Assembly (NCBI GenBank): GCA_903847335.1
Contig: CAINDI010000010.1
Location: 1 to 40,862 of the forward strand
DNA from: an uncultured Verrucomicrobiota bacterium
GTDB lineage: Bacteria > Verrucomicrobiota > Verrucomicrobiia > Palsa-1439
Reading direction: 5' to 3'
Length of the DNA stretch: 40,862 bases
Position numbers and translations under genes: made by a program. Of this stretch, positions 27,968 to 39,910 are shown one piece after another. The notes below the pieces were generated by a model that was given only the letters and a program-made list of their open reading frames with translations, was not told the DNA's origin and made no database searches. Every line of letters starts with the position of its first letter. Within the stretch, counting starts at the first letter, position 1.

Positions 27968-28881
27968 CAGACTGTCACCGCCTCCATTCGTCGCGCCAAC
28001 GCCAGTTCCACCATCCGCGAACAAAGCGCTGGCAATTCCATTCCCGCCGCCCGCGCCGCCTTCGGCAACAAACTATTCGCCGTCATCCCCGGTAGCGTGT
28101 TCACTTCCAAAACATAAAACTGGCCAGTCGTCTCATTCATCATCAAATCCACTCGCGAATAATCCCGGCAACCGAGACATTCGTGCGCCCGCAACGCAAA
28201 CATCTTCGCACGCGCCGTGATCGTTGCTTCCAACGGCGCCGGACAAATTTCTTCGGCGGCACCGGTCGTGTACTTCGCTTCGTAATCAAAAAATTCCCGC
28301 TTCGTCTTGATTTCCACCACCGGCAACGCCCTGCCATCCAAAATCCCCACCGTGAACTCGCGTCCCCGCACAAACTCTTCCACCATCACTTGCGAATCAA
28401 ATTGCCGCGCTTGTTGATACGCCTGAACTAACGCCGCCAAATCATCCACGCGACTAATTCCCACACTCGAACCTTGCCGCGCCGGTTTCACAAACAACGG
28501 CCAGTGCAATTCCTCCGGCACATTCACGCCATCAAAGATCACCGATTTCGGCGTCGGAATTCCCGCCTCGAGAAAACATTCTTTTGCCAAAATTTTATTG
28601 AATGCTCGCGCACTCGCGCCGGGATCCGAGCCGGTATACGCCACGCCGTGGTCTTCCAAAATTCTCTGAATCTGTCCGTCTTCGCCAAACGTCCCGTGCA
28701 TCGCGATAAACGCCACGTCCACGTCCGCCGGCACATTTACTGCCGTGCCCTGAATATCCACCGGCACCACCGACATCCCCGCGTCGCGCAAAGCCGCCAC
28801 CACCATCGCGCCGGATTTCCGCGACACTTCCGCTTCCGCCGACGGCCCGCCCATCAACACCGCCACTCGTAAATCTTTCAT
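27967..28881 (-). CDS. ddl: D-alanine--D-alanine ligase
   Basis: Makes the D-Ala-D-Ala dipeptide that MurF attaches. It is an ATP-grasp enzyme of 304 residues. It opens RVAVLMGGPSAEAEVSRKSG and has MHGTFGEDGQIQRILE, the phosphate-loop segment KPARQGSSVGISRV, and DLMMNETTGQFYVLEVNTLPGMTANSLLPKA with the Mg2+ ligands. Its ATG overlaps the murC-murB stop (ATGA) and follows GGGAGGGAAGG, a strong Shine-Dalgarno. It is in the expected place, before ftsQ. Confidence 0.95.
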   Translation of the reverse strand: MKDLRVAVLMGGPSAEAEVSRKSGAMVVAALRDAGMSVVPVDIQGTAVNVPADVDVAFIAMHGTFGEDGQIQRILEDHGVAYTGSDPGASARAFNKILAKECFLEAGIPTPKSVIFDGVNVPEELHWPLFVKPARQGSSVGISRVDDLAALVQAYQQARQFDSQVMVEEFVRGREFTVGILDGRALPVVEIKTKREFFDYEAKYTTGAAEEICPAPLEATITARAKMFALRAHECLGCRDYSRVDLMMNETTGQFYVLEVNTLPGMTANSLLPKAARAAGMELPALCSRMVELALARRMEAVTV

Positions 28882-31214
28882 CCTTCCCTCCCTAAAATTT
28901 GAACTTCTGGTTCCAGTTCAATCCCGCGCTCTTGCCGGGCGCGCAACCGAATCTGCTCCATCAACGCCAACACATCGCCCGCCGTCGCGCCGCCTTCATT
29001 CACAATAAAATTCCCGTGCAACTCCGACACTCGCGCTCCACCAACTGCCGTACCTTTCAACCCCAATTCATCAATTAACTTCCCGGCCGCAATCGTTCCC
29101 GGATTTTTGAACACGCAACCCGCGCTTGGCTTCGCCGGCTGACTCGCCCAACGTTTCGCCTCAAACTGCCGGAGCCGCGCATCAATCTCCGCTCGCGCCG
29201 TTTTCTGCCCACGCAAAATCGCCGTCAGCACCACGTGATTCGCAAATAGCGGACAGTTCCGGTAATACACCGGCAACGTCTCCGCCGCTGCATCATAAAT
29301 TTCCCCAGTCATACTCACGTACCGGACCCACTCCACCACATCAAACGTCTGTTTCCCCATCGCCCCAGCATTCATCCGCAACGCCCCACCGAGCGACCCC
29401 GGGATTCCTTCCAAAAACTCCAATCCACCCAGCTCATGCTGCTTCGCCAAATTCACAATGCTCCGCAACCGCGCTCCGCCGCGCGCATACAACCGCTCGC
29501 CGTCCGCTTCCACCTTCGAAAATTCTGCCGCTGAAAGTTGCACCACCACTCCCGCAATCCCGCCATCACGCACCAACAAATTTGTTCCACGCCCCACCAC
29601 CATCACCGGCACATTTCGCTCATGGCAGTAGCGCAACAATTTCGCCAAATCGTTTTCGTTCCCCGGTTCCACCCAAACTTCCGCCGGCCCACCGACCCGC
29701 ATCGAAGTGTGTCGCGCCATCGGTTCATCGCGCCGCACCACCGCGTCGCTGGTCAACGCCGCGCGCAAATCCTTCTCGATACTCACCGGTGACGCCGTTG
29801 CCACCAAAATGTTCGGCCCTTGCTTCGCGAGTTTCTCTGCCACCGCCTGCGCCACCTTATAAATATCACCAGCGCCCATCACCAACACCAAATCACCGGT
29901 GCGCGCTTCCGTGAAAAGTTGCTGCGCCAACCGTTGCAAATCCGGTTCATACGTCACATCGGTTTGTCCCGTCGCCAACACGCCATCATAAATTGTCCGA
30001 CCACTCACACCGGCAATCGGCGCTTCGCTCGCCGCGTACACATCCGTCAGAAAAAGTTTATCGGCTTTCCGGAATGCCGTCGCAAATTCCTTCTGCAACG
30101 CCTGCGTCCGCGAGTACCGGTGCGGCTGAAACGCCGCAATCACCCGCTGATAACCGAGCGTTCGCGCCGCTGAAATTGTCGCCGCAATTTCCGTCGGATG
30201 ATGCGCGTAATCGTCCACCACCGCAATGCCTTCGCCATCGTAGCGGCGTTCAAATCGCCGTTTCGCGCCGGTGAACTTCGCCACCGCCGCCGCGACTTTT
30301 TCAAATGGCATTCCCAATTGATCCGCCACCGCAATCGCCGCTAGCGCATTCACAACATTTTGTTTACCGGGAATCACCAATTCGATTTCACCGAGCCGTT
30401 GGTCCCGGCAAATCACTGTGAACCGGCACCCGCGATTCGTCGGCGTGATGTCGAGTGCCCGATAATCCGCTTTCTCCGACAACCCAAATGAAATCGCCGT
30501 GCGACTTTCCTTCGCCAACGTCGTGCAGTTCGCGCAATCGGCGCAGTAAAATACCGTGTTCAGCGTGCTCCGGAAAAACGATTCAAAATTCGCCAGCAAC
30601 CCTTTCATCGTCCGGTGATGGTCGAGATGTTCCGCTTCGATGTTCAGGCAAATCGAATATTGCGGCGTGAACCCAATCAACGTGCCGTCGCTTTCGTCCG
30701 CTTCCGCCACGAAATACTTACCGGCGCCAAACTGCGCGTTCGTCCCCAGCACCGGCACCTGACCGCCGACGCAAAAAGTCGGCGCGCTATCACTGCGCGT
30801 CAGCACATGCGCAATCAACGCCGTGGTCGTCGTCTTCCCGTGCGTCCCGGCCACTGCGATATTATTTTTGTGCGTCATCAACGCCGTCAACAACAGCCCG
30901 CGCCGAATTGCCGGAATCTTCAACTCCGCCGCCGCGATTAATTCCGGATTCTCTGCGGTCACCGCTGAAGTGAACACCACTAACTCCGTATCCGGCCGCA
31001 CATTCTTACCGGCGTGGCCGACAGAAATTTTTGCGCCGAGCTTCTTCAACCCGGTCGTCTCACCGTTCGGCAACAAATCCGAACCGGTCACGATGTGACC
31101 TTGTTGCAATAGCAACCGGGACAATCCGCTCATCCCGCAACCGCCGATGCCGACAAAATGCACACGGCGCGGATTCACCCAGAGAAAATCAATTAATTGC
31201 TGTCTAGTCAGCAT
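28878..31214 (-). CDS. murC: MurC-MurB fusion: UDP-MurNAc--L-Ala ligase / UDP-MurNAc dehydrogenase
   Basis: A single open frame of 778 residues joining two sequential peptidoglycan precursor enzymes. Residues 1-468 are MurC: VHFVGIGGCGMSGLS, P-loop GTHGKTTT (123-130) and DDYAHHPTEI (334-343). Residues about 478-778 are FAD-dependent MurB: RHTSMRVGGPAEVWVEP, GRGTNLLVRDGG (541-552), GIPGSLGGALRMNAGA (603-618) and a Glu near 770 (LEPEVQ). The expected active-site Ser of the AGSxFKNP motif is Cys700 here (SAGCVFKNP). ATG 31214 is chosen: GGAG sits four bases upstream and it overlaps the murG stop by 11 bases. The longer frame to 31250 lies deep in murG. MurB acts before MurC, so domain order is reversed relative to the pathway. 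Confidence 0.95.
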   Translation of the reverse strand: MLTRQQLIDFLWVNPRRVHFVGIGGCGMSGLSRLLLQQGHIVTGSDLLPNGETTGLKKLGAKISVGHAGKNVRPDTELVVFTSAVTAENPELIAAAELKIPAIRRGLLLTALMTHKNNIAVAGTHGKTTTTALIAHVLTRSDSAPTFCVGGQVPVLGTNAQFGAGKYFVAEADESDGTLIGFTPQYSICLNIEAEHLDHHRTMKGLLANFESFFRSTLNTVFYCADCANCTTLAKESRTAISFGLSEKADYRALDITPTNRGCRFTVICRDQRLGEIELVIPGKQNVVNALAAIAVADQLGMPFEKVAAAVAKFTGAKRRFERRYDGEGIAVVDDYAHHPTEIAATISAARTLGYQRVIAAFQPHRYSRTQALQKEFATAFRKADKLFLTDVYAASEAPIAGVSGRTIYDGVLATGQTDVTYEPDLQRLAQQLFTEARTGDLVLVMGAGDIYKVAQAVAEKLAKQGPNILVATASPVSIEKDLRAALTSDAVVRRDEPMARHTSMRVGGPAEVWVEPGNENDLAKLLRYCHERNVPVMVVGRGTNLLVRDGGIAGVVVQLSAAEFSKVEADGERLYARGGARLRSIVNLAKQHELGGLEFLEGIPGSLGGALRMNAGAMGKQTFDVVEWVRYVSMTGEIYDAAAETLPVYYRNCPLFANHVVLTAILRGQKTARAEIDARLRQFEAKRWASQPAKPSAGCVFKNPGTIAAGKLIDELGLKGTAVGGARVSELHGNFIVNEGGATAGDVLALMEQIRLRARQERGIELEPEVQILGREG

Positions 31215-32274
31215 ACGTCTCCACCAAATCCGCAATTCGCTCCGCCGCATCGCTCACCGCCAACGTCTGCACCGCGCGCGCCATCCCAGCCCGCCGGTGA
31301 GCATCGTCGAACAACCCGGCTAACTCCTCCGGCAGCCGCGACACCGGTTCCGCAATTCGCGCCGCGCCGATGCGCTCAAAAACTTTCGCGTTATGCCACT
31401 GATGATTACCGGTGGCCTGCGGATACGGCAACAAAATCGCCGGCAAACCGAATACCGCCAATTCCGTCAACGTCGCCGCGCCCGACCGGGCTACCACCAA
31501 ATCCGCCGCGCTGTACGGCAATTCCATTTCACTGCAAAAACTCATCACGTTCGCCGTAAATCCATTTTTTTGGTATGCGGCGCGCAACGTCGCCTCGTCG
31601 CGCAGCCCACTCAAATGCACAAATTGCGCTCGCTCTTTCCAAGCGGAAAGCTCCGGTAACGCCGCAATCACCGCCTCGTTCACCGCCCGCGCCCCTTGAC
31701 TGCCGCCCATCACCAAAACCGTCAGTCGCTGACGGTCAAGCCCTAGCCGTTCGTGGGCACCGGCAATTTTTCCCTGCCGGAGCGTTTGCCGAATCGGTGT
31801 CCCGGTCACCGTCACCGGTTTACGCCCAAAAAATTTCGCGCAGTCCGGCACGCCCACCGCAATATGATCCGCCCACTTGCCGGACCACCGGTTCGCCTTG
31901 CCGGGTACAGCATTCGACTCGTGAATTAACTTCACACCGCGTCGTCGCCACTTGGCCGCGAACACCGCCGGTGCCGAGGTAAATCCGCCCATGCCCAGCA
32001 CCGCGTCCGGTTCAAACTGCCGACATTCTTCCAAACAATCGCCAACCGCTCGCGCTAACCGGACACAAAATTTCACCAAGCCACCGGCACCGGTATAACC
32101 CACTGCCGAAACTGACCGAACCGTGATTGCTGAATTTTTTAGTGCCGCTTGATCCACCGCTTTTTCCGAAACCAACAATTTCACTTCGTGCCGGCGCGAC
32201 ACCAACATTTCCGCGACCGCAAGGCCGGGAAACAAATGCCCGCCCGTTCCGCCGCATGCGATGAGCACTTTCAT
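31204..32274 (-). CDS. murG: UDP-GlcNAc:lipid I GlcNAc transferase MurG
   Basis: Adds GlcNAc to lipid I to form lipid II on the inner face of the membrane. It is a GT-B enzyme of 356 residues. It opens MKVLIACGGTGGHLFPGLAVAEML. Further motifs are HESNAVPGKANR, MGGSQGARAVN and the nucleotide-sugar site ARSGAATLTELAVFGLPAILLPYP. Its ATG overlaps the ftsW stop (ATGA), and its own TAG lies inside the start of the MurC-MurB gene, so the three are translationally linked. Confidence 0.96.
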   Translation of the reverse strand: MKVLIACGGTGGHLFPGLAVAEMLVSRRHEVKLLVSEKAVDQAALKNSAITVRSVSAVGYTGAGGLVKFCVRLARAVGDCLEECRQFEPDAVLGMGGFTSAPAVFAAKWRRRGVKLIHESNAVPGKANRWSGKWADHIAVGVPDCAKFFGRKPVTVTGTPIRQTLRQGKIAGAHERLGLDRQRLTVLVMGGSQGARAVNEAVIAALPELSAWKERAQFVHLSGLRDEATLRAAYQKNGFTANVMSFCSEMELPYSAADLVVARSGAATLTELAVFGLPAILLPYPQATGNHQWHNAKVFERIGAARIAEPVSRLPEELAGLFDDAHRRAGMARAVQTLAVSDAAERIADLVETYAD

Positions 32275-33410
32275 ATGCTTAATTCGCGTTGCTCAAAAAA
32301 TTCTCGCTCGACCGTGCGCGTTTCCATCGCGCCGTGCCGGTAAATACTCAGTAAAACGCCCACCGCCACCAGATTCATCATCACGTTCGACCCGCCGTAA
32401 CTGAGAAACGGCAACGCGAGACCTTTCGTCGGCAACCACGCGGTGACGACGCCGATATTGATGAGTGTTTGCAAACCAATCATCGTGGTAATTCCGAACC
32501 CGAGATATTGGCCGAACAAATCCGGCGCACGCAGACTGATGATGATGCCGCACGCCACCAACGCGATGAAACATGCCAGCACCGCCAGCACGCCGATGAG
32601 ACCGAGTTCTTCGCCGACGATTGGAAAAATGAAATCGGTGTGCGCTTCCGGCAGATAAAACATTTTTTGTCGGCTATTGCCGAGACCGAGACCGTTAATG
32701 CCGCCGGAGCCAAACGCCAGCATCGCTTGCCAGACTTGGTAACCGGGGCCGGCTTTGTATTTTGCGAGGTCGGTGAAGGCCAGCATCCGACGCATCCGGA
32801 CCGCATTATGTGAAATCAAGACCGCAAAACCGATGATGCCGGTTAAAATTGTTGGGCCGAGGTACCGGAGGCGAACGCCGGCCACAAACATCATCGCGAT
32901 GGCGACTGCCGCCAGCAACGCCGTCGTGCCGAAATCTGGTTCGGCCAAAACTACCAGACACGTTCCACCAACCACCGCCATCGGCAGCAGAAAACCGCGA
33001 CCGAAGCGTTCAATCCAGCGTTTTTCTTTGGCGAGATAATGTGCTAGCCAAGTGATGAGCGCGAGCTTGGCAAACTCCGATGGTTGAACACGAATACTCC
33101 CAAGACCAAGCCACCGGCGCGCCCCACTCACTTTGATTCCGACGTGCGGAATCAGCACCACAACTAAAAGTGCACCGGCAATAATCAATGCCGGTTTGGC
33201 AACCGCGCGGAGTTTCGGATACGGCGTGGCCGCCATGACCGCACAGCAAACGCCGCCGAGCGTCATCCAAACGAGTTGCCGTTTCAGTAGATAATTTGGG
33301 TCGCCATATTTGTCACGCGCTTGCAGTGAGCTAACACTGAAAAGCATGACAACGCCCACCGTCACGAGAATTAACGTGGCGATGAGCAGAGTGATGGCGG
33401 CTTTGTTCAT
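32271..33410 (-). CDS. ftsW: SEDS peptidoglycan polymerase FtsW
   Basis: A ten-helix SEDS-family glycosyltransferase that polymerises lipid II with FtsI at the septum, about 379 residues. Conserved segments include SGARRWLGLGSIRVQPSEFAKLALI, VLAEPDFGTTALL and LGNSRQKMFYLPEAHTDFIFPIVGEELG. LPTKGLALPFLSYGGSN near the C-terminus is diagnostic of FtsW/RodA. Location before murG favours FtsW over RodA. ATG 33410 is preferred over GTG 33419; neither has a strong Shine-Dalgarno. A GC hairpin lies just upstream. Confidence 0.94.
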   Translation of the reverse strand: MNKAAITLLIATLILVTVGVVMLFSVSSLQARDKYGDPNYLLKRQLVWMTLGGVCCAVMAATPYPKLRAVAKPALIIAGALLVVVLIPHVGIKVSGARRWLGLGSIRVQPSEFAKLALITWLAHYLAKEKRWIERFGRGFLLPMAVVGGTCLVVLAEPDFGTTALLAAVAIAMMFVAGVRLRYLGPTILTGIIGFAVLISHNAVRMRRMLAFTDLAKYKAGPGYQVWQAMLAFGSGGINGLGLGNSRQKMFYLPEAHTDFIFPIVGEELGLIGVLAVLACFIALVACGIIISLRAPDLFGQYLGFGITTMIGLQTLINIGVVTAWLPTKGLALPFLSYGGSNVMMNLVAVGVLLSIYRHGAMETRTVEREFFEQRELSI

Positions 33411-33428
33411 TTCATTCACTCGCGCCGC

Positions 33429-33476: not shown

Positions 33477-34391
33477 TTAGTTCGTTGAAACAATCGGCGC
33501 GGCAATCGCGGGAGTCGCCGTGGTCAACACCGGCATCGGCGCGGCGGCCGACGGGATGACGAGCTTCTGGCTGACGGTGACGCGTTTGACGTCGCTGATG
33601 TTGTTGGCCTTCATCAATTCAGCCACCGACACATTGTATTTCTTCGCAATGCTGCCGACGGTTTCGCCGATGTCCACGATGTGCGTGGTCTGGCCATTAT
33701 CAACCTGCATACCGGGCTGCCAAGCGCCGACGTTGGCAGTCGTGACTGGCGCGGTGACCGGAGTCGTTGCCGCAGCGGCTGGGATGACGAGCTTCTGGTT
33801 CACTTTCAACGAGTCGCTGGTCAAGCTATTTGCCTGTTTGAGCGAAGCCACGCTGACGTTGTTCGCTTTCGCGATTTTCCAGAGCGAATCACCGGACTTC
33901 ACGGTGTAGCTGTTGCCGCTGATGGCTGACGTGACCGGCGCGGTTGCGGAGCCAATCGCCGGTGTCGCGGAAGCCACGGCGGTGACTGGCGCTTCGGCTT
34001 TAGCCGGAATGGTGAGCTTCTGACCGACCTTGAGCGCGGCGGTCTTGGTGAGTTTGTTCGCACTCGCGAGTTCGCTCACTTTGATGTGTTCCGCCTTCGC
34101 GATCTTCATCAGCGTCTCACCCTTTTTGACGACATACGTGCGAGCCGCCGGAGCTGGTGCTACTACCGGCGCGATCGGCGCTAAGCTCGACGGAGCCGGC
34201 AAGGCTGGCGTCAGGCTTTGCGTGTTCTGGTCGGCTGTTGTCGCAACGGCATTGGTCGCTGTTTCGTCAGCCGATCCGGCGGACGCGACTTCGGGCGCTT
34301 TGGCGCGGGAGCAACCTTCAAATACGAAGATGCCTCCGATAACTAACACATGCAGTGCAACTACGATCAATACGACTTTCGATACTTTCAT
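33477..34391 (-). CDS. Membrane-anchored protein with three LysM domains
   Basis: A 304-residue protein. An N-terminal hydrophobic anchor (VVLIVVALHVLVIGGIFVF, about 6-24) is followed by a Cys that does not fit a good lipobox (FEGC). A Pro/Ala/Thr-rich spacer follows, then LysM1 (85-129, YVVKKGETLMKIAKAEHI), LysM2 (161-204, YTVKSGDSLWKIAKANNV) and LysM3 (236-280, HIVDIGETVGSIAKKYNV). LysM domains bind GlcNAc-containing peptidoglycan. There is no catalytic domain, so it is probably a periplasmic scaffold. It sits between murD and ftsW inside the division/cell-wall cluster, where canonical clusters have no such gene. AAAGGA lies just before the ATG. Confidence 0.85.
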   Translation of the reverse strand: MKVSKVVLIVVALHVLVIGGIFVFEGCSRAKAPEVASAGSADETATNAVATTADQNTQSLTPALPAPSSLAPIAPVVAPAPAARTYVVKKGETLMKIAKAEHIKVSELASANKLTKTAALKVGQKLTIPAKAEAPVTAVASATPAIGSATAPVTSAISGNSYTVKSGDSLWKIAKANNVSVASLKQANSLTSDSLKVNQKLVIPAAAATTPVTAPVTTANVGAWQPGMQVDNGQTTHIVDIGETVGSIAKKYNVSVAELMKANNISDVKRVTVSQKLVIPSAAAPMPVLTTATPAIAAPIVSTN

Positions 34392-34455
34392 TTTTCCTTT
34401 CGTTACGTTTTATTTTTCTACGTTTATTGGTTTGGGTTGGTTGATTGTTGATTGC

Positions 34456-34507
34456 GTTGTAGCCGCGCTCGGCGAGCGCGCTGGCCCTCACCGAGGGCGG
34501 CTACAAC
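34456..34507. repeat. REP-like 52-base inverted repeat at the murD 3' end
   Basis: Outer arms GTTGTAGCCGC (34456-34466) and GCGGCTACAAC (34497-34507) are perfect. After one mismatch the pairing continues with CTCGG/CCGAG, giving a 17-position stem around an 18-base GC-rich loop. The right arm contains the murD stop codon. It looks like a REP/palindromic interspersed element, but only one copy is in this window, so that class is inferred. Confidence 0.55.
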
Positions 34508-35856
34508 AAAGCTAATACTTCCTTCTTAAACTCGTCGCCGCGATGTTCATAATTTTGAAACATGTCAAAGCTGGCGCACGCCGGTGATAACAACACCGTG
34601 TCGCCGCACCGCGCATGGCTGACCGCCATTCGCACCGCCTCGCTCATCGAATTTGCTCGTTCGCAAGGCGTCACATCACCCCACGCGCGATCAATTTCCT
34701 CCTGCGTCTCGCCGATGAGCACGGCCAGTTTGACTTTTTCTGCAATCACCTCCTTGATGCTGGAGAAGTTGAGTCCCTTGTCCCGCCCGCCGGCAATCAA
34801 GACCACCGGGCCCGGCAACGACCGCAACGCCTTCTCCACCGCGTCCACGTTCGTCGCCTTCGAATCGTTAATAAAAGTTACGCCTTCTTTCGCCGCCACC
34901 ACTTCACACCGATGCGCCTGCGGGCAATACGCCCCCAACGCCTCGCGAATCGCCGCCACCGGCAGCTGCATCGCCAACCCAGCCGCGAACGTCGCTAAAA
35001 TGTTTTCCGCGTTGTGCAACCCGCGCAAATTCGTCTCGTCCATCTTCAGCAAAATTCCGTTGCACTCCGGCAGCCGGCACCAAATCGTCTGTCCGTCGAG
35101 CCACAAATCCGCTTTCTCGCCGTATGCGCTGACGGTAATGAGCCGCGCCTTCGGCTGAATCCCAAGCTGCTTGAGCCAATTCAAAATCTCCACGCTGACA
35201 ATCGCGAAATCGTCCGCCGTCTGGTTCATGAAAATCCGCGCCTTGGCTCGCGCATATTCTTCCATCGAACCGTGCCGGTCGATATGGTCCGGCGTCAGGT
35301 TCAACCAAATCGCAATGTTCGGACGGAACTGCTCGATGGCTTCCAATTGAAACGAGCTCGTCTCCACCACCAACGCATCCAATCCCGCGCTCTGCTCGGC
35401 AGCATTGGAAAGTGCGTTCCCGATGTTACCGGCGGCAATCGTCCGCTTACCGGCCGTCTCCAACATCAAATTGATTAACTCGGTCGTCGTCGTTTTTCCA
35501 TTCGTACCGGTAATCGCCACAATCGGGCACAAGCAATACCGGTACGCCAATTCCAATTCGCTCAAGACCGGTGTCTTCTGCCGGCGCAATTCTGTTACCA
35601 CCGGCCGTTCCGGCGCGATACCGGGACTCAGCACTGCAAAATCAAACCGGGCGGCCGCATCAAAATGATTTCCCAACTCAACGCGCACACCAATCTGCCG
35701 CAGCCGGTCCGCGCGCTCCGTCAATTCAACAGTTTCACCTTCATCGCGGACGACGACATGCGCGCCGTCCCGTTGCAACAACGACGCCGCCGCCATTCCG
35801 CTCCGGCCTAAGCCGAGCACCAGCACGTCTCGATTTTTCACATCAATTGTTTGCAT
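34501..35856 (-). CDS. murD: UDP-MurNAc-L-alanine--D-glutamate ligase MurD
   Basis: Adds D-Glu to the nucleotide precursor. It has 451 residues. The N-terminal Rossmann opening is VLVLGLGRSGMAAASLL, the P-loop GTNGKTTTTELIN, the central domain NLTPDHIDRHGSMEEYARAK, and the C-terminal domain FINDSKATNVDAVEKAL and AGGRDKGLNF. It is the only Mur ligase in the window not fused to another. ATG 35856 follows GAGGT and starts three bases after the mraY stop. The TAG stop is inside the inverted repeat at 34456-34507. Confidence 0.96.
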   Translation of the reverse strand: MQTIDVKNRDVLVLGLGRSGMAAASLLQRDGAHVVVRDEGETVELTERADRLRQIGVRVELGNHFDAAARFDFAVLSPGIAPERPVVTELRRQKTPVLSELELAYRYCLCPIVAITGTNGKTTTTELINLMLETAGKRTIAAGNIGNALSNAAEQSAGLDALVVETSSFQLEAIEQFRPNIAIWLNLTPDHIDRHGSMEEYARAKARIFMNQTADDFAIVSVEILNWLKQLGIQPKARLITVSAYGEKADLWLDGQTIWCRLPECNGILLKMDETNLRGLHNAENILATFAAGLAMQLPVAAIREALGAYCPQAHRCEVVAAKEGVTFINDSKATNVDAVEKALRSLPGPVVLIAGGRDKGLNFSSIKEVIAEKVKLAVLIGETQEEIDRAWGDVTPCERANSMSEAVRMAVSHARCGDTVLLSPACASFDMFQNYEHRGDEFKKEVLALL

Positions 35857-36988: not shown

Positions 36989-39910
36989 TTACCTCAGTGC
37001 AAATGCCTCCAGCACTTTCTCCAAATAAATTCCCCGCGAACCTTTCAACAACACAAAATCGCCATCGCGCAGCAACCACCGCAACGTCGCCGCCGCTTCC
37101 ACCGCATCGGCCACCGCCACCACACGTTGCGCTCCCAGACCGGCTGCCAACGCGCCATCTGCAATCCCGCGCGCATTCGGTCCGACCGTGACCAACAATG
37201 CCACACCTGTTTGCGCGACTAGCTCACCAATTTCCCGGTGCGCCGGTGCTGTGTGTGCGCCGAGTTCCAACATATCGCCCAGCACAGCAATTTTTCGGCC
37301 GCGGCCTGGCGTTTCACGCAACATCGTCAACGCCGCTTTCATCGAGACGACATTGGCGTTGTAGCAATCGTTGACGAACCGGATGCCAGCCAGCACTTGC
37401 TCCTGCATCCGCATTCCCGGAAACTCCATCGTTTCGAGGCCTTCCCGGATTTCGTCGAGGTCGAGTCCCTGCATGTAACCAACCGCCGCCGCCTGCAACG
37501 CATTATAAATTTGATGCCGGCCCAACGTTCGTAACCGAATCACCACATCGCCGCGCTTTTTCGCGATGTTCAACCGGAATTTGATGTCGCCATTAATTTT
37601 AATTTCGCTCGCCCGGATGTCGGCGTAGTTTTCGATGCCGATAGTCACTACTGCCGCGCGTGTCCGGGCGCGCAATTCTTGGAACCACCGGTCATCTGCG
37701 TTCAAAACAGCAAAACCATCCGCCGGTAGGTTTTCCAGCAACGTGCCTTTTTCTTTCGCCACACCGGCTTCGTCGCCGAAAAATTCAACGTGACCCAAAC
37801 CGATATTAGTAATCACTGCAATCTGCGGCTGACAAATTCCGGTCAGCGTCGCGATTTCACCGGGATGATTTGTGCCGAGTTCAAATACGCCGAAATCATC
37901 ACCGGCGGTCAACCGCAGCAAGTTCAACGGCATGCCGATGTGGTTGTTTTTGTTACCGGTGGTCTTGGTGACACTGAATCGCTGGCCGAGAACGGCGGCG
38001 ATCATTTCTTTCGTCGTGGTCTTGCCGGAGGAGCCGGTAATTCCGATGACGCGGGTTGTGGGGGGCATTTGCCGGCGGTAGTTCGTTGCGAGTGTGTGCA
38101 ATGCGGTGAGGGTGTCTGGCACTTGTAACAGCGCCAAAGCACTAGGCGAGTGTATTGCACGGGTAGGATGGTGCGAAACTACCGCCGCGGATGCCCCCCG
38201 CTGCGCCGCGTCATCCAAAAATTCATGTCCATCAAAATTCGGCCCCCGCAGCGCGATGAAACAATCGCCGCGCTCCAGCGCGCGCGAGTCAATGCCGACG
38301 TGCTGCACCGGCGTCGCGGGGTTGCCTTGAAGAATCTGAGCGTTGCACAATTTCGCAATATCACCGACACGCATGATGGGGTTCTGGTTACCGGAAGTGA
38401 CGGTAATGGCAGTAGCGCTTCGTGACGCCACCACCACACCTTGAGTTCGAAAATAATCTTCCACAACTTGCCGGTCGCTGAACGGCACCGTTGTGTCGGC
38501 AAATTCCTGATAGGCCTCGTGACCTTTACCGGCAATCAACACACTGTCGCCCGGCTGCGCCAGATCGAGCGCTCGTTCAATCGCTTCCAACCGATCCGAC
38601 ATCACCACATACCGGTCTTGATTGCCGGCCGGGAAACCGGCTTCGACTTGCCGGAGAATTTCGCACGGGTCTTCAGTACGCGGATTGTCGCTGGTCAAAA
38701 TTGAAAAATCAGCCAGCTCAAACGCCGCCGCGCCCATCGGTTTACGTTTGGTGGTATCGCGGTCGCCACCGCAGCCAAATACGCAAATCAGCCGGCCTTT
38801 CGTTAATTCGCCAACGGTTGCCAGCACATTCCGGAGCGCGTCCTCGGTGTGCGCATAATCCACGTACACGCCAAACGGTTGACCGGTCTGAATCTTTTCC
38901 AATCGTCCCGGCACCGCCGGCATCGTTGCCAGCGCGCGTTCGATGGTTTCCAAATCAATTCCGAGCGCCACCGCCGCACCGATTGCCGCGAGCGCATTAT
39001 GCACATTGTACCGGCCAATCAGCGGCAACGTCACCGGCACACTGCCGAGCGGCGTGCGGACAACAAAATACGTCTCGTTCGCTGACACGCGCACGTCGGA
39101 AGCGCTGACCATCGCATCGCCTAGGACGCCGTACGTCACAACGGCGTTTTCCCCACCCAAGCCTGCAATCAATCGGCGCCCGTATTCGTTGTCCGCATTC
39201 ACCACCGCTTGGCCGTGTTTGCGCATTGCGCCCAACCCGGCAAACAATCGCGACTTCGCTTTGAAATATTCTTCCATCGTCTCGTGGTAATCGAGATGGT
39301 CTTGCGTCAAGTTCGTAAAAATCGCCACGTCGTAGTCAATCCCGGCCACTCGCTTCCGGTCGAGCGCGTGCGAGCTGACTTCCATCGCCACACCTTTGCA
39401 ACCGGCGCGCAACATCTGGCTCATCAAATCTTGAATCTCCACCGACTCCGGTGTCGTCCGCGCCGCCGGAATAATCCGATTGCCAACTTGGTATTGCACC
39501 GTGCCAAGCATCCCAGTACCCAGCCCAGCCGCTTCCATAATCGCCTTCACCATGAACGCCGTCGTCGTCTTGCCATTCGTACCGGTCACGCCGACGACTT
39601 TGAGTTGTTGCGAAGGATGATTGTAAAAACTCGCCGCCGCCAACGCCAACGTCTGCCGCGCATCGTCCACCCGGATCTGAGTCGCTCGCGGATTCAGACC
39701 AGTATCATGCTCGAACACGATTGCCGCCGCGCCCCGGTCAATTGCCATCTCGACATACCGATGACCATCGGTTTTCTCTCCCGGCATTGCGAAAAACAAA
39801 TTACCGGGCTTCACGCGCCGGGAGTCATAAGAAATCCCGGTAATGTCCCGGTCAAGCGAACCTTCGACAGCGAGCGGATGAACGGTTTGGAGAATCTCGG
39901 TGAGTTTCAT
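36989..39910 (-). CDS. murE: MurE-MurF fusion: meso-DAP-adding / D-Ala-D-Ala-adding ligase
   Basis: One continuous frame of 973 residues combines two consecutive ligases. Residues 1-495 are MurE: P-loop GVTGTNGKTTT (107-117), the carbamylated-Lys region YFKAKSR, and DNPR (408-411), the motif for meso-diaminopimelate rather than lysine. A short linker near 497-511 leads to MurF from about 513: RVGDIAKLCNAQIL, P-loop GITGSSGKTTT (623-633), NHPGEIA, NDCYNANVVSMKAAL and LKGSRGIYLEKVLEA. No frameshift or internal stop marks the junction, though an internal ATG precedes the MurF part. The ATG overlaps the ftsI stop by one base (TGATG). Confidence 0.96.
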   Translation of the reverse strand: MKLTEILQTVHPLAVEGSLDRDITGISYDSRRVKPGNLFFAMPGEKTDGHRYVEMAIDRGAAAIVFEHDTGLNPRATQIRVDDARQTLALAAASFYNHPSQQLKVVGVTGTNGKTTTAFMVKAIMEAAGLGTGMLGTVQYQVGNRIIPAARTTPESVEIQDLMSQMLRAGCKGVAMEVSSHALDRKRVAGIDYDVAIFTNLTQDHLDYHETMEEYFKAKSRLFAGLGAMRKHGQAVVNADNEYGRRLIAGLGGENAVVTYGVLGDAMVSASDVRVSANETYFVVRTPLGSVPVTLPLIGRYNVHNALAAIGAAVALGIDLETIERALATMPAVPGRLEKIQTGQPFGVYVDYAHTEDALRNVLATVGELTKGRLICVFGCGGDRDTTKRKPMGAAAFELADFSILTSDNPRTEDPCEILRQVEAGFPAGNQDRYVVMSDRLEAIERALDLAQPGDSVLIAGKGHEAYQEFADTTVPFSDRQVVEDYFRTQGVVVASRSATAITVTSGNQNPIMRVGDIAKLCNAQILQGNPATPVQHVGIDSRALERGDCFIALRGPNFDGHEFLDDAAQRGASAAVVSHHPTRAIHSPSALALLQVPDTLTALHTLATNYRRQMPPTTRVIGITGSSGKTTTKEMIAAVLGQRFSVTKTTGNKNNHIGMPLNLLRLTAGDDFGVFELGTNHPGEIATLTGICQPQIAVITNIGLGHVEFFGDEAGVAKEKGTLLENLPADGFAVLNADDRWFQELRARTRAAVVTIGIENYADIRASEIKINGDIKFRLNIAKKRGDVVIRLRTLGRHQIYNALQAAAVGYMQGLDLDEIREGLETMEFPGMRMQEQVLAGIRFVNDCYNANVVSMKAALTMLRETPGRGRKIAVLGDMLELGAHTAPAHREIGELVAQTGVALLVTVGPNARGIADGALAAGLGAQRVVAVADAVEAAATLRWLLRDGDFVLLKGSRGIYLEKVLEAFALR

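Follow-up and report, generated by a model that had tools for sequence, protein, structure and literature searches.

A membrane-anchored LysM protein encoded beside ftsW in Verrucomicrobiia has a conserved histidine-bearing helix and is a candidate accessory protein of the septal synthase

The window analyzed here comprises the 40,862 nucleotides of contig CAINDI010000010.1 (positions 1 to 40,862, forward strand; GenBank assembly GCA_903847335.1) from an uncultured bacterium of the phylum Verrucomicrobiota (class Verrucomicrobiia, lineage Palsa-1439). It carries a division and cell wall (dcw) cluster in the order murE–murF fusion, mraY, murD, a LysM gene, ftsW, murG, murC–murB fusion, ddl, ftsQ, ftsA, and ftsZ. 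The LysM gene, here called dcw-LysM, lies on the minus strand at positions 33477..34391, and its ATG start codon is immediately preceded by the GA-rich stretch ACGAAAGGAAAA. It is flanked upstream by murD (34501..35856, minus strand; TIGR01087, 420 bits) and downstream by ftsW (32271..33419, minus strand; TIGR02614, 380 bits), with gaps of 109 and 57 nt, respectively. An initial annotation of this DNA had described a triple-LysM anchored protein between murD and ftsW, and this protein is real: the open reading frame (ORF) of 304 aa encodes one membrane helix and three LysM domains recognized by Pfam, and both neighbors could be identified. The statement that canonical dcw clusters have no LysM gene at this place is correct for Escherichia coli, whose murD and ftsW share a single base with no gene between them, but not for the class of the window and for the Chlamydiota, where the gene is the rule.

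The gene product is predicted to be a bitopic membrane protein. Only about four cytoplasmic residues precede the N-terminal helix, which spans approximately residues 5–25 (34317..34379, minus strand) and in which His14 appears to be buried, as judged from the alignment, the conservation, the residue positions, and a structural model; Cys27 sits just past the helix. The linker (residues 28–83, 34143..34310) is rich in Pro, Ala, Ser, and Thr, with 45% Pro plus Ala, and is followed by LysM domains at 34005..34136 (E = 1.2e-12, 49.5 bits), 33780..33908 (E = 1.6e-17, 65.1 bits, the best match of the three), and 33552..33683 (E = 3.1e-11, 45 bits), all on the minus strand. For the whole protein the Pfam LysM model PF01476 yields an E value of 4.2e-43 and 145.5 bits against a curated cut-off of 20.9. 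The AlphaFold2 model computed from the single sequence (mean pLDDT 59.9) has the helix at 5–25, disorder at 25–79 (pLDDT < 50), and beta-alpha-alpha-beta units of the LysM type at 84–128, 160–203, and 234–280. The closest solved structures by sequence are the LysM regions of proteins such as LytE and Extracellular protein 6. In the window protein Pfam detected no M23/LytM, SPOR, or TonB_C domain, no other catalytic domain, and no credible domain apart from LysM. In NCBIfam the LysM domains cross-match to DipM, ActS, NlpD, and others, in all cases far below the cut-off. NlpD, DipM, and ActS share LysM domains with the window protein but also have a LytM domain; as this domain is absent here, membership in the NlpD family was rejected.

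In order to compare the locus within the phylum, murG and about 7 kb of its upstream region were collected from a hand-picked sample of approximately one genome per genus with a few extras and from close relatives of the window. The sampling pool consisted of 131 murG-positive genomes among the 135 searched (G133, G136, G040, and G124 have no murG at the threshold used). G003, where no ftsW was found and whose LysM ORF (L256) is a paralog, was excluded from the counts, and L271–L274 were left out of the linkage counts. Counting the window itself, 45 of the 47 genomes examined in its class have a LysM gene with an N-terminal helix immediately before ftsW. The initial annotation had named loss of the gene from the cluster among close relatives as a refuting outcome; this check was made and did not refute it. 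In seven of these 45 genomes mraY, and not murD, is located upstream of the LysM–ftsW pair. Among these seven, murD lies elsewhere in G016 and G022, was not found in G015, and, judging from gene order, is away from this place in the remaining four. Because the LysM–ftsW pair persists in these seven genomes, ftsW and not murD is the partner gene, and the description “inserted between murD and ftsW” gives the right position but the wrong emphasis. A scan of the whole genome of the window organism returned only six LysM matches, spread over four frames. Given this small number and the recurrence of the gene pair across the class, the murD–LysM–ftsW arrangement is not a product of chance.

The two exceptions in the class, G025 and G077, are reduced genomes of 0.9 Mb from the same genus. 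In both genomes a short frame between murD and ftsW retains the membrane helix and its His and has no LysM domain. These frames are on the minus strand of the fetched loci (L150, 5052–5432; L255 from G077) and may represent either a pseudogene or a helix-only protein.

The membrane helix was compared in an alignment of 47 orthologs, 45 from the class and two from outside. One helix column is occupied by His in 46 of the 47 sequences, the exception being G015 with a Ser, and the columns beside it hold varying hydrophobic residues. In the background, a central His is found in 0.5% of hydrophobic windows, and the LysM paralogs of the window's own genome do not have this helix. Between the genome of the window and a congener, the ratio of nonsynonymous to synonymous substitution rates (dN/dS) is 0.02 for residues 1–30 (11 synonymous changes and 1 nonsynonymous), 0.37 for the linker, and 0.24, 0.20, and 0.43 for the three LysM domains. 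Mean identity over ten genomes of the family amounts to 90.4% for the helix, 63, 67, and 52% for the LysM domains, and 36% for the linker. FtsW of the same ten genomes is 68% identical overall, and the 95th percentile of its 27-aa windows is 90.3%. At the family level the helix is therefore as conserved as the top-ranking stretches of FtsW. Conservation in the protein peaks in the His-bearing helix and not at the wall-binding end, a point that is absent from the initial annotation, and this suggests that the protein plugs into the division machinery.

The architecture alone would be compatible with a plain anchor, perhaps a lipoprotein, which would link the inner membrane to the wall as a structural tether and share the operon only because this is convenient for its expression. 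Of the 47 orthologs, 36 have a Cys after the helix and six fit a PROSITE-like lipobox pattern. However, Glu precedes Gly-Cys in the window protein, which thus fails the pattern together with 40 other orthologs, and the lipoprotein reading was rejected for the window protein. In addition, neither a plain anchor nor a cleaved signal has any need for an invariant buried His and a helix dN/dS this low, and we consider a mere tether to be very unlikely. An anchor alone does not account for the active-site-like evolution of the helix, which is most simply explained by a helix–helix contact with a conserved membrane protein. We propose FtsW as this partner because it is the sole gene product that is always encoded next door.

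FtsN of E. coli consists of a cytoplasmic tail, one helix, a disordered linker, and a C-terminal peptidoglycan-binding domain. The overall layout of the window protein is the same, with LysM domains in the place of the SPOR domain of FtsN and a tail of about four residues that is no FtsA-binding tail. We suggest that dcw-LysM may encode a bitopic protein, FtsN-like in layout but unrelated to FtsN, that binds peptidoglycan and serves as an accessory to the septal synthase FtsW, and on sequence grounds we give this reading an even chance of being right; the synthase concerned would probably be the FtsW–FtsI complex. The very short cytoplasmic tail would lead into the single helix, which would dock on a conserved protein of the membrane, most likely FtsW, with a face whose single buried polar residue is His in Verrucomicrobiia and Asn in Chlamydiota. 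The flexible Pro/Ala-rich linker would carry the three LysM domains into the periplasm, where they would bind glycan strands. In this manner the protein could keep the synthase in contact with its substrate or product, or could signal the presence of septal peptidoglycan, a role that would match the one of FtsN in E. coli with its helix, linker, and SPOR domain, though with an unrelated wall-binding domain. The sequences themselves show the architecture, the constant linkage to ftsW, the strong purifying selection on the helix, and the loss of LysM before the helix in the two reduced genomes, whereas FtsW as binding partner, the septal location, and an effect on synthesis are inferred.

A comparable gene is found in the Chlamydiota. 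These genomes were reached via a 16S primer pattern; G157, G158, and G165 (no murG) and G164 (contig edge) were left out. In 18 of the 20 loci fetched, a protein with an N-terminal helix and two LysM domains is encoded directly before ftsW. One of the other two loci contains neither ftsW nor a LysM gene, and the second is incomplete. murD precedes the chlamydial LysM gene in 17 of the 18 cases, and in the eighteenth the fetched stretch starts there. In a second draw of 30 genomes, four of which are also in the first set, the coordinates place two LysM matches a short way upstream of the best-matching ftsW in all 30. Many of these genomes measure 1.0–1.3 Mb and may belong to the Chlamydiaceae. 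The polar position of the chlamydial helix is occupied by Asn in 18 of 18 sequences, with a tight consensus around it, and the proteins stop just past the second LysM domain. In the chlamydial genome G200, ftsW reads with an internal TAA, possibly an assembly error.

By gene order, the chlamydial protein known as “NlpD” (Cpn0902/CT759, and NlpD of Waddlia) is probably the occupant of the murD–ftsW slot. This protein is like the window protein in its slot, in its single N-terminal helix centered on a polar residue, in its linker, and in its LysM repeats with no further domain apparent. It differs in having two LysM domains instead of three and Asn instead of His in the helix. NlpD of Waddlia chondrophila is reported to be septal (PMC5147048, PMC6956297) and to bind peptidoglycan of E. 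coli (PMC6635528). The comparison with SPOR-type septal scaffolds made in the initial annotation is plausible in the light of the layout and of these reports.

The name NlpD points to a different function, namely a scaffold or activator of hydrolases which, like NlpD or DipM, would bring cell-separation amidases to the septum or would itself trim peptides. The cross-matches of the LysM domains below the cut-off are in agreement with such a function, as are the annotation of the chlamydial counterpart as NlpD and the carboxypeptidase activity with which it is credited. Nevertheless, no LytM or other catalytic domain is present in the window protein, the chlamydial proteins end after their second LysM domain, and the constant neighbor is a synthase gene and not an amidase gene. 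Moreover, one of the reports on Cpn0902 describes this protein as misannotated and the chlamydiae as not having retained NlpD/EnvC homologs (PMC13104611). A hydrolase scaffold is thus, in our opinion, unlikely.

The buried His itself raises the question of whether the helix docks elsewhere. It might dock on the outer side of a proton-driven motor of the ExbB/TolQ type, in which case the linker and the LysM domains would transmit a pull or place the motor on the peptidoglycan of the septum. A His buried in a bitopic helix, as seen in 46 of the 47 LysM orthologs, is a hallmark of TolA and TonB. These transducers are also similar to the window protein in combining one such helix with a disordered Pro-rich linker and a C-terminal binding domain. 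The exchange of His for Asn in the Chlamydiota recalls TonB, in which Asn is reported to replace His20 fully (a title among the references of PMC8928145). The helices of TolA and TonB bind the motor via a conserved His in the motif S-x3-H-x6-L-x3-S (PMC12215075, PMC12204202). TolA/TonB helices and LysM-protein helices from the same genome look alike, for example in G009 with FACLAHAGLIGGIILFEG in TolA and IVVALHVLVIGGIVVFEG in the LysM protein. With His masked, a matrix of the LysM helices was applied to 17 TolA helices and, as background, to 760 helices of FtsW and MraY; 10 of the 17 exceeded the 95th percentile of this background (p = 0.0012). Each background helix was given its best register; sliding-window scoring is register-biased and was not relied on. 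The TolA/TonB helices had been chosen for holding His (33 of 50 loci, 31 re-found by script, 17 used as TolA). All 29 relatives have motor genes, and so do 19 of the 20 genomes in a second set, namely G077 and 18 of the 19 Chlamydiota; with an ExbB/TolQ gene in every relative, the reduced G025 and G077 included, the presence or absence of a motor is uninformative.

On the other hand, the LysM orthologs depart from the transducers in several respects. Four residues ahead of His, where the motif has Ser, 37 of 47 orthologs have Val, and the position at +11 is mostly Pro, Glu, Gln, or Asn, so that the full motif is not present. The window protein has no TonB_C domain, and its C-terminal domains are of a different kind. 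As a crude measure of the motor-box strand, the median hydropathy of the best hexamer is 1.37 in 43 LysM proteins versus 1.68 in 25 TolA/TonB proteins (p = 0.008). By eye no motor-box pattern is common to the LysM proteins, and the single-sequence model has no motor-box strand past the helix. The lineage-matched covariation of LysM and TolA helices is not significant (p = 0.17), and the LysM helices are no nearer to TolA helices than to other TonB_C helices (mean 0.88 vs. 1.54). Identity within the family is far higher for the LysM helix than for that of TolA (90% vs. 48%, the latter across six of the ten genomes), and in the Chlamydiota the TolA-like proteins retain His, whereas the LysM protein has Asn. 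A LysM-bearing TonB-like transducer was not found in the literature searched. Motor docking is therefore a live but weaker alternative to the FtsW accessory protein, and we regard it as quite unlikely. It would also be rather surprising if the protein were a further kind of His-helix transducer, which docks on a motor at the division site and grips glycan strands with its LysM domains, such that proton-driven motion acts on, or is steered by, septal peptidoglycan, both in the Verrucomicrobiia, which have FtsZ, and in the Chlamydiota, which lack FtsZ and have Asn instead of His.

Several observations weigh against the proposed role as an FtsW accessory protein. Adjacency and helix conservation do not in themselves name FtsW as the partner, and Ser takes the place of His in the ortholog from G015. 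The helix-only frames of G025 and G077 may be pseudogenes in decay, as their flanks diverge and the start codon is uncertain. In the Chlamydiota the helix (59.5% identity) is not more conserved than the LysM domains (56 and 65%; linker 20%). Homology between the helices of Verrucomicrobiia and Chlamydiota is undemonstrated, as none of the 18 chlamydial helices scored above the 95th percentile of the background (p = 0.065). The carboxypeptidase activity reported for Cpn0902 of Chlamydia pneumoniae (PMC9928106, PMC13104611) does not fit either, because a plain LysM tether with nothing but LysM domains would not explain it. Outside the class 49 loci were fetched, of which 33 have no ftsW within reach and are uninformative. 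Among the 16 loci with ftsW next to murG, a LysM gene precedes ftsW in just two. As most of the phylum outside the class does not have the gene beside ftsW, dcw-LysM is not required for the function of FtsW in general.

In the Planctomycetota a protein with helix and LysM is encoded on the opposite side of ftsW, between ftsW and murG, in 6 of 11 loci. The proteins of these loci (L246, L248, L249, L250, L252, and L253) have a different conserved start (MGQLEKYGLYVL, MSFIERFGLGALF). An ftsW-linked gene for a membrane-anchored LysM protein thus recurs in three phyla of the PVC group, which does not imply a single inheritance. The initial annotation had considered the protein to be a lineage-specific divisome component. 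“Lineage-specific” is too narrow given the occupied slot in the Chlamydiota and the planctomycetal loci; the earlier interpretation as a whole is partly supported.

Our literature searches returned no earlier link between LysM, dcw, and Verrucomicrobia and nothing useful for Akkermansia, and no description of the helix or its His was found. In 2016, LysM genes were drawn near the fused murB/C, usually in the order ftsW–murG–murB/C, in Verrucomicrobia (PMC4803751, Fig. 7B and its legend). They are probably the same gene, represented in that figure as a symbol and not accompanied there by an analysis of the protein. The gene is accordingly already known as a neighbor; in the literature searched, what appears to be new is the signature of the helix, the degree to which it is conserved, and what became of the gene in reduced genomes. 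The FtsW accessory protein would touch upon two open questions, how chlamydiae divide in the absence of FtsZ and what regulates FtsW in bacteria other than E. coli. As it is kept beside ftsW in a class with FtsZ and in a phylum without it, dcw-LysM is a concrete candidate for an FtsW partner that predates the loss of FtsZ. Verrucomicrobium spinosum is a free-living and genetically tractable host, in contrast to the obligate intracellular chlamydiae, and His14 gives a sharp prediction. In V. spinosum ftsW, murD, and murG are reported to be essential, and the main text of this study, which covers dcw genes, does not mention LysM (PMC12283558).

Some further observations concern other genes and regions. 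In seven genera outside the class (L185, L188, L191, L194, L196, L202, and L203), a lipoprotein-like protein with one LysM domain is encoded 1.2–1.9 kb upstream of murG. These proteins resemble L006, a paralog from the genome of the window, whose sequence suggests TPR-like repeats, and in the three such loci inspected a coiled-coil protein with a C-terminal helix comes next. In the window the MurE–MurF fusion (973 aa, 36989–39910) matches the model PRK11929 with 954 bits, which is under its cut-off of 1023. The same cluster encodes the MurC–MurB fusion (790 aa, 28878–31250), a published signature of Verrucomicrobia (PMC4803751). Finally, the stretch between murD and dcw-LysM (34392..34500, minus strand) contains a strong hairpin (−29.9 kcal/mol, z −2.97). 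The hairpin at 34440–34510, located at or just past the murD stop codon, is present in a single copy in the assembly, its own inverse match aside, and is possibly an attenuator or a processing site.
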